A DNA stretch of 35,772 nt. It comes from a virus. The stretch covers positions 1 through 35,772 of IMG/VR virus record IMGVR_UViG_3300009187_000045. One strand, 5' to 3'. The notes under the pieces were generated by a model. That model saw only the letters and a list, made by a program, of their open reading frames with translations, was not told the origin of the DNA and did not search any database. The position numbers were made by a program, and so were the translations under genes. Positions 10,586 through 11,749 of the stretch are shown one piece after another (position 1 is the first letter of the stretch; every line of letters begins with the position of its first letter).

Positions 10586-10681
10586 ATGAAACCCTCAAAC
10601 GAAACCCTCATGGATTTGTTGACCGCCTTGGCCATTGGCGTTGGCTTGGCTGCACTCTTGGTGGCATGGTGGTCAGCGTGA
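10586..10681 (+). CDS. Tiny single-pass membrane protein (31 aa)
   Basis: A 31-codon frame begins MKPSNETLMDLLTALAI and continues with an uninterrupted hydrophobic stretch GVGLAALLVAWW, a good single transmembrane helix. Its TGA overlaps a GTG that begins the next gene (GTGA), the coupling style used all over this genome. The ribosome site is weak. Possible roles include superinfection exclusion or signalling, but nothing in the sequence decides between them. Confidence 0.6.
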   Translation: MKPSNETLMDLLTALAIGVGLAALLVAWWSA

Positions 10682-10959
10682 AATACAATCCAACCCCATT
10701 TTGCCCTGTGGACCTTTTGCTGTTTGTCTGCTGCATTGAAGATGTTGAACTGGTTTGCTTCTTGGAATACAGCCCAGAAGAAAAGGGATCAGTTGATTCT
10801 TATGGCGCACCTTATGAGCCAAATATTGATGAGTGCATGACGCTGAATAACGCATACATCGCTGGCACTGATGTGGATATTGCCCACATGATTTTGCAAA
10901 GCATGGTGGACCACATTGAGGTGACTGCGCTGGAGAAGTTTAAGGATGGTGATGAATGA
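10678..10959 (+). CDS. Hypothetical phage protein (93 aa)
   Basis: The product begins at GTG (VKYNPTPFCPVDLLLF) if the GTGA overlap with the preceding gene is used. An ATG at 10666 in the same frame is the alternative and would add four residues. It contains CFLEYSPEEKGSVDSYG, DECMTLNNAYIAGTDV and a C-terminal EALEKF-like helix, features I recall from short phage proteins of unknown function encoded near replication genes. It is acidic. Its stop overlaps both downstream starts at 10952 and 10956. Confidence 0.7.
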   Translation: MKYNPTPFCPVDLLLFVCCIEDVELVCFLEYSPEEKGSVDSYGAPYEPNIDECMTLNNAYIAGTDVDIAHMILQSMVDHIEVTALEKFKDGDE

Positions 10960-11749
10960 GCTGGCTCTTTTCGCAGGCGCTGGTGGTGGAATACTTGGGG
11001 GAAAACTTCTCGGATGGCGCACAGTCTGCGCAGTCGAATGGGAGCCATACCCAGCAAGCGTATTGTGCGCCAGACAAAATGACGGCATTCTTGCGCCTTT
11101 CCCGATTTGGGATGACGTACAAACCTTTGACGGCCACCCATGGCGAGGCATTGTTGATGTCGTATCTGGCGGCTTTCCCTGCCAAGACATCTCAGCCGCG
11201 GGGGGGGGGGCTGGAATTGATGGTGCAAAAAGCTCAATGTGGAAACACATGGCCAGAATCATTAGCGAAGTGGGACCAAGATTCGTGTTCGTGGAAAACA
11301 GCCCAATGCTCACTTCTCGGGGACTTGGAGTTGTTCTCGGGGACTTGGCCCAAATGGGGTTTGATGCGAAATGGGGAGTCTTGGGCGCAGACCTCACTGG
11401 TGCAGCGCATAGGCGGGACAGAATTTGGCTGGTTGCCTACGCCAACAGCATCCGACTGGATGACTGGGAAAGTGAATGGAATCGAACACCGAAACAGAAG
11501 ATTCATTCGGACCAGTCTGACAAGTGGGACAGAATTTGGAGCAAATCTAAGGGATGCGTTTCGTTTGATGACTGGAAAAGCCTTGCCACCGAATTTCTCA
11601 GAATGGATGATGGGATGGCCAATAGGATGGACCGACTTAAAGCCATTGGAAATGGACAAGTGCCAGTAGTGGCAGAAAAAGCATGGAAAACATTAAATGA
11701 ATCAAGACCTACCCCCCGCCATCGATGCCTGCCTCGACCTAATCAATGA
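10952..11749 (+). CDS. C5-cytosine DNA methyltransferase (265 aa)
   Basis: Ordered m5C-methyltransferase motifs are present: motif I LFAGAGGG (near residues 6-13), motif IV GGFPCQDIS with the catalytic Cys (about 77), motif VI VENSP (about 114), motif VIII AHRRDRIW (about 153) and motif X AIGNGQVPVV (about 231). It would methylate phage DNA, probably against host restriction or at regulatory sites. The region between VIII and X is short, so the target-recognition domain is minimal. Codons just after motif IV lie in an 11-G tract; the frame is intact as read. A second 237-codon ORF overlaps it in another frame. The start is ATG 10952 or 10946. Confidence 0.9.
   Translation: MNELALFAGAGGGILGGKLLGWRTVCAVEWEPYPASVLCARQNDGILAPFPIWDDVQTFDGHPWRGIVDVVSGGFPCQDISAAGGGAGIDGAKSSMWKHMARIISEVGPRFVFVENSPMLTSRGLGVVLGDLAQMGFDAKWGVLGADLTGAAHRRDRIWLVAYANSIRLDDWESEWNRTPKQKIHSDQSDKWDRIWSKSKGCVSFDDWKSLATEFLRMDDGMANRMDRLKAIGNGQVPVVAEKAWKTLNESRPTPRHRCLPRPNQ
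10956..11669 (+). CDS. Overlapping-frame protein inside the methyltransferase gene (237 aa)
   Basis: An open frame of 237 codons lies fully within the methyltransferase, shifted by one base. It starts MSWLFSQALVVEYLGENFSD and ends with LPTPTASDW and a GWPIGWTDLKPLEMDKCQ terminus. As I recall, proteins with this N-terminus and the MGWPxGWTDL C-terminus are annotated in many phages and prophages, so this frame seems conserved in its own right. Its ATG overlaps the TGA of the preceding gene (ATGA), exactly the coupled start used elsewhere here. Function unknown. It could be a dual-coded product, or become the C-terminus of the methyltransferase through slippage at the 11-G tract. Confidence 0.6.
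   Translation: MSWLFSQALVVEYLGENFSDGAQSAQSNGSHTQQAYCAPDKMTAFLRLSRFGMTYKPLTATHGEALLMSYLAAFPAKTSQPRGGGLELMVQKAQCGNTWPESLAKWDQDSCSWKTAQCSLLGDLELFSGTWPKWGLMRNGESWAQTSLVQRIGGTEFGWLPTPTASDWMTGKVNGIEHRNRRFIRTSLTSGTEFGANLRDAFRLMTGKALPPNFSEWMMGWPIGWTDLKPLEMDKCQ
11200..11210 (+). repeat. 11-G homopolymer tract inside both overlapping frames
   Basis: Eleven consecutive G residues follow the motif IV codons of the methyltransferase. They encode Gly-Gly-Gly in that frame and are also inside the overlapping frame. Tracts this long are prone to replication or transcription slippage and to sequencing error. In relatives, as far as I recall, this spot reads AGKGAG rather than AGGGAG. Confidence 0.85.

Follow-up and report, generated by a model that had tools for sequence, protein, structure and literature searches.

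Two long open reading frames share the + strand of the window, the whole stretch of 35,772 bases from a virus record that was analysed. The first, MT (10952-11749), fully overlaps the second, ALT (10956-11669), which is read in the +1 frame. The MT reading frame is open from 10946 to 11749 and its conserved start is the ATG at 10952 (MNELALFAGAGGG); ALT encodes 237 amino acids (MSWLFSQALVV...MGWPIGWTDLKPLEMDKCQ). An upstream frame (10666-10959) terminates at a TGA (10957-10959) that is overlapped by the ALT ATG at 10956. An earlier note on this DNA had described two same-strand frames overlapping by more than 700 bases, and a second product of 237 residues that begins MSWLFSQAL at an ATG overlapping the upstream TGA, and both descriptions hold. 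The sequence ATGAATG at 10952-10958 (+ strand) contains both start codons, with a spacing of 4 nt. The ALT ATG is kept in 125 of 126 distinct relatives, and the MT start is variable, being ATG, TTG, GTG or an upstream start. The MT asparagine codon that overlaps the ALT ATG is AAT in 124 of 125 relatives; across these genes asparagine is encoded 667 times by AAT and 686 times by AAC. Shine-Dalgarno-like matches occur in 76 of the 125 relatives, with a spacing peak 6-8 nt from the ALT ATG, and are best placed for ALT. At 11640-11749 in the window, ALT stops before the consensus end and does not carry the QQQHGxS tail, and MT extends 80 nt beyond the ALT stop, unlike most relatives. Neighbouring genes in the window encode an Enc34-type ssDNA-binding protein, an SNF2-type helicase, a primase/helicase, a PD-(D/E)XK nuclease and an SU10-type portal.

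MT has the features expected of the large subunit of a C5-cytosine methyltransferase, with motifs I-VIII and X. It matches PF00145 (4.4e-28 in a Pfam search, covering profile positions 4-181 of 324), phrog_363 (2.1e-61) and M.HhaI (1.7e-11 across residues 4-173, phmmer). Tested as a PF00145 enzyme, it possesses the catalytic motifs I, IV, VI and VIII together with motif X, all on the + strand: motif I, LALFAGAGGG (10961-10990), is near-invariant in A2; motif IV, GGFPCQ (11168-11185), which harbours the catalytic cysteine, is invariant in A2, as are E115 and N116 of motif VI, ENSPM (11294-11308), R155, R157 and W159 of motif VIII, HRRDRIW (11408-11428), and G233, N234 and Q236 of motif X, AIGNGQVP (11642-11665). 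Motif IX and a conserved target-recognition domain (TRD) are both absent from this frame, and MT, judged by its motifs, is for that reason not a complete methyltransferase by itself; the earlier view of it as a full m5C enzyme with all main motifs was mistaken.

Both missing elements are carried by ALT (PTPTASD...NFSEWMMGWPIGW), a candidate small subunit. PTPTASD (11436-11456, + strand) marks the start of a TRD-like region, its T162 and P163 being near-invariant in A1, and single-chain homologues hold an LPTPxxxD element in frame. Motif IX, NFSEWMMGWPIGWTDL (11592-11639, + strand), with E216, M219, W225 and T226 invariant in A1, is likewise in frame in the single-chain homologues. The N-terminal region of ALT, approximately 100 residues overprinted on MT motifs I-IV, is conserved and has no counterpart in single-chain enzymes. 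ALT matches phrog_1008 (1.3e-22), phrog_26627 and phrog_35493, in keeping with its earlier recognition as a recurring phage protein. Searches of Pfam and NCBIfam gave no match, and comparison of the ALT profile with PDB sequences gave chance-level matches only. An AlphaFold2 model of ALT alone was poor (mean pLDDT 52), too poor for a structure search.

The two frames are conserved together. When viral contigs were scanned separately with MT and with ALT, all 155 loci matched both proteins. After removal of duplicates, no ALT stop was found across the whole overlap in any of 125 distinct relatives, although permutation of synonymous MT codons predicts a mean of 5.1 per gene, and an open ALT frame arising by chance is thereby excluded. 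The permutation gave P<0.05 in all 125, and in 57 of them zero stops were never reached in 2000 permutations; the other + frame contains 16.7 stops on average. None of 615 MT methionines is followed by I, M, T, N or K, any of which would force a stop in ALT. Since the window sequence by itself yields a P of only 0.0085, the evidence for dual coding lies in conservation and not in one sequence. To avoid a bias towards ALT, loci were also picked solely by the MT motif-IV pattern: ALT was recognisable in 112 of 112, extended at least 55 residues upstream of motif IV in 99 of the 99 scored, and in 91 of these 99 ended within 60 nt of the MT stop or past it. The conserved dual coding proposed in the earlier note is thus confirmed, and the stops in most close relatives that would have spoken against it do not occur.

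Selection was assessed in 39 independent close pairs by sorting substitutions according to their effect in each frame, the two omega values given for each region representing the two classes compared. Overall, omega was 0.27 (CI 0.24-0.31) or 0.43 (0.37-0.51) for ALT and 0.15 or 0.23 for MT. Sites synonymous in MT are constrained, and the free evolution of synonymous sites that the earlier note would have counted against dual coding is likewise not seen. Constraint on ALT is uneven, being strong at codons 163-205 and motif IX and less clear in the N-terminal 100 codons. Within the TRD (codons 163-205), ALT is constrained (0.16/0.09) whereas MT is not (1.10/0.65), which identifies ALT as the frame that matters there; this result holds when transitions and transversions are separated. 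Over the first 100 codons constraint is strong in MT (0.05/0.16), whereas ALT gives 0.30/1.02, the second of these values being its NN/NS estimate (CI 0.83-1.26). As one of these ALT estimates is close to 1, its first 100 codons may have little function. Pairwise identity of ALT exceeds an MT-preserving null in every region, a saturating null that ignores shared ancestry. At four-fold sites of MT, divergence is 0.36-0.38 compared with 0.52 in flanking genes at equal protein identity of 75-85%; it is lower than in the flanking genes at 65-85% identity, and the difference is small above 85%.

Relatives display three arrangements of these motifs. In 188 distinct loci, and in a further 19 where motif X was not detected in MT, motif IX lies in the +1 frame inside the open MT frame. 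In 23 distinct loci it lies in the catalytic frame itself, forming a single chain, and in eight, exemplified by Corndogvirus gp6/gp5 and Streptomyces phage Samy, motifs IX and X occur together in the +1 frame after the end of MT. This survey used a strict motif IX pattern that left 112 distinct loci unmatched; many of these are closely related and have a variant motif. Many single-chain homologues match the ALT profile in their MT frame, in the TRD-IX part only (ALT positions ~157-227), with modest best E-values of 7e-6 and 1.9e-5. The predicted structure of one single-chain homologue, L421, superposes on M.HhaI along its full length (Z 22.6, rmsd 3.3, 254 residues). Because this protein, with its ALT-like elements in one frame, is predicted to fold like M.HhaI, the model connects ALT with the enzyme's small domain. 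The Actinobacteriophage 'DNA methylase' gene pairs Firecracker gp6/gp5, Samy 49/50 and Scamp 79/78 (L157, L162 and L171), in which the ALT-like frame runs on beyond the MT end, each have the appearance of one C5 methyltransferase split between overlapping frames, not of two enzymes. Mycobacteriophage-type single-chain enzymes (L170, L404 and L390) carry up to six LPTPxxxD repeats between motifs VIII and IX, possibly representing multiple recognition modules.

Given that the TRD and motif IX lie in ALT, that the remaining motifs lie in MT, and that the same elements are joined in single-chain relatives, the locus very probably encodes a two-subunit, naturally split C5 DNA methyltransferase expressed from two fully overlapping frames. 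The TRD and motif IX make up the small DNA-binding domain of enzymes that consist of one chain, M.HhaI for example. MT would supply the catalytic, AdoMet-binding domain (motifs I-VIII) and motif X, and ALT the target-recognition region and motif IX. Translation of the subunits would begin at the two closely spaced starts, and the products would come together as one active enzyme, which would methylate phage DNA, presumably as protection against host restriction. The likely route to this arrangement is two changes of frame: a +1 shift separating the TRD from motif VIII, of which Corndogvirus gp6/gp5 is an example, and a further one separating motif X from motif IX.

Both frames are also crossed, in the region coding for the catalytic loop, by a tract of 11 G (11200-11210, + strand), which recurs at this site and varies in length among relatives. 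In 112 relatives the longest G run at the site is either 2-5 (91 loci) or 9-15 (21 loci), with 6-8 in none. A pattern scan that ignored frame recovered many more tract loci. Across the window, L084 and the tract-bearing loci numbered from L465 upwards, the tract measures 9-17 G. Among tract-bearing loci scored, 74 of 104 are in frame and 30 (29%) are frame-shifted, compared with 0 of 112 loci that have no tract. Of 31 shifted loci, 29 have both frames open on either side of the site; among 19 clusters of near-identical sequences, 7 contain tract lengths that differ modulo 3. As in simple-sequence phase-variable loci, a homopolymer of at least 9 recurs and varies in length between intact flanking frames. 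The pattern suggests slippage or phase switching, with the reservation that differences in tract length produced by in vivo slippage and by amplification, sequencing or assembly error are indistinguishable here. The tract can tentatively be regarded as a phage-borne contingency site in a dual-coding gene, at which a single slip would put both subunits out of frame, a reading somewhat short of an even chance. If it is correct, phage populations would be a mix of methylating and non-methylating members, and if the tract does switch, phase-variable methylation would be added to phages. A literature search for poly-G phase variation of phage methyltransferases, judged on titles and the opening parts of abstracts, listed no matching case. 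A second recurrent G-run site, of 10-14 G, is present in five loci (L125, L127, L337, L350 and L367), seemingly just after the ALT PTP motif.

Other explanations of the second frame account for parts of this evidence. ALT could be a shadow of MT, whose codon constraints would keep the +1 frame open and similar in sequence although no functional protein is made from it. An NN/NS near 1 over the N-terminal 100 codons of ALT is what such a shadow would give, and gene finders often retain one frame only. Nevertheless, MT codon usage alone predicts 5.1 stops in each of the 125 relatives that have none, and it offers no account of a TRD where ALT is constrained and MT is not. An ALT-like frame that outlasts MT in Firecracker, Samy and Scamp, and single-chain forms that hold the same elements in the catalytic frame, make this explanation most unlikely. 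The frames could instead be joined into one chain if the ribosome or the RNA polymerase slipped in a programmed way, at the G tract for instance: two frame changes would restore the order I-VIII, TRD, IX, X, and some loci do contain the tract. However, MT and ALT each begin at a conserved start of their own and run without interruption, and 91 of the 112 scored relatives have no run of six or more G at the site. Moreover, as the tract precedes motifs VI-VIII, a slip there would lose them, and frameshift fusion is consequently very improbable.

The earlier note had proposed ALT as an unknown partner or regulator of the methyltransferase. An independent protein of this kind, such as an inhibitor or an anti-restriction protein unrelated to the TRD of the enzyme, would be compatible with the conserved N-terminal part of ALT that single-chain enzymes lack, and with the failure of ALT alone to match Pfam. 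It would not explain why ALT carries exactly the motif IX and TRD that MT is missing, and is improbable. The idea of a partner is likely to be right; that of a separate regulator gives way to ALT probably being the missing TRD and motif IX part.

A split C5 methyltransferase is known in principle; the arrangement described here is set apart by whole-gene overlap, starts 4 nt apart and a wide spread among phages. Lee, Kam and Shaw reportedly found in 1995 that the small subunit of M.EcoHK31I is encoded in an alternative frame within the large one. This two-polypeptide enzyme (YGGCCR) shows the same split as MT and ALT, its large subunit containing motifs I-VIII and X together with the predicted TRD, and its small subunit motif IX (PMC3404938). 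In the window locus, by contrast, the TRD region is constrained in the frame of the small subunit, ALT spans nearly the whole gene from a start 4 nt after that of MT, and no restriction enzyme was recognised beside the genes. Because of this placement of the TRD, the locus looks like a variant of the M.EcoHK31I type and not a member of it, the likeness drawn here being one of motif division. M.AquI (CYCGRG) is also a C5 methyltransferase split between two polypeptides, an N-terminal part with motifs I-VIII and a C-terminal part with the distal variable region and motif IX (PMC3404938). Its motif X accompanies motif IX, whereas the window locus has motif X in MT; Corndogvirus gp6/gp5 is of the M.AquI kind. 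The single-chain phage enzymes Babsiella gp54, Gudmit gp58 and L421 share the motifs, LPTPxxxD and EWMMGWPxGW-like elements with the window locus but, unlike it, hold everything in one frame, with motif X after IX. An HNH endonuclease encoded out of frame inside a phage methylase gene is another case of a concealed second frame (PMC11855218); that HNH is an inserted homing element, whereas ALT overlaps the methylase itself, with no insertion. In the full-text literature searched, with its coverage of few subscription journals, no report of this arrangement in phages was found.

Long same-strand overlaps in which both frames are conserved and explained are rare, and a specific role is likely for ALT. 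The locus and its relatives allow the step from one chain to a split enzyme, and from there to complete overlap, to be traced; they also provide a case in which the division of selection between two frames can be tested. Of 50,697 phage records, 69 contain a relative of ALT; relatives were also identified in at least 498 stretches of viral contigs and in 78 bacterial-genome loci, mostly from Pseudomonadota with some from other phyla; a DNA match was found in 4 of 5426 E. coli genomes. As records keep one frame, the second is often lost in annotation. In three public phage records (L156, L158 and L159) one of the two frames is annotated, and in phPA-G the methyltransferase was missed because ALT, listed as hypothetical, is the sole annotated frame.
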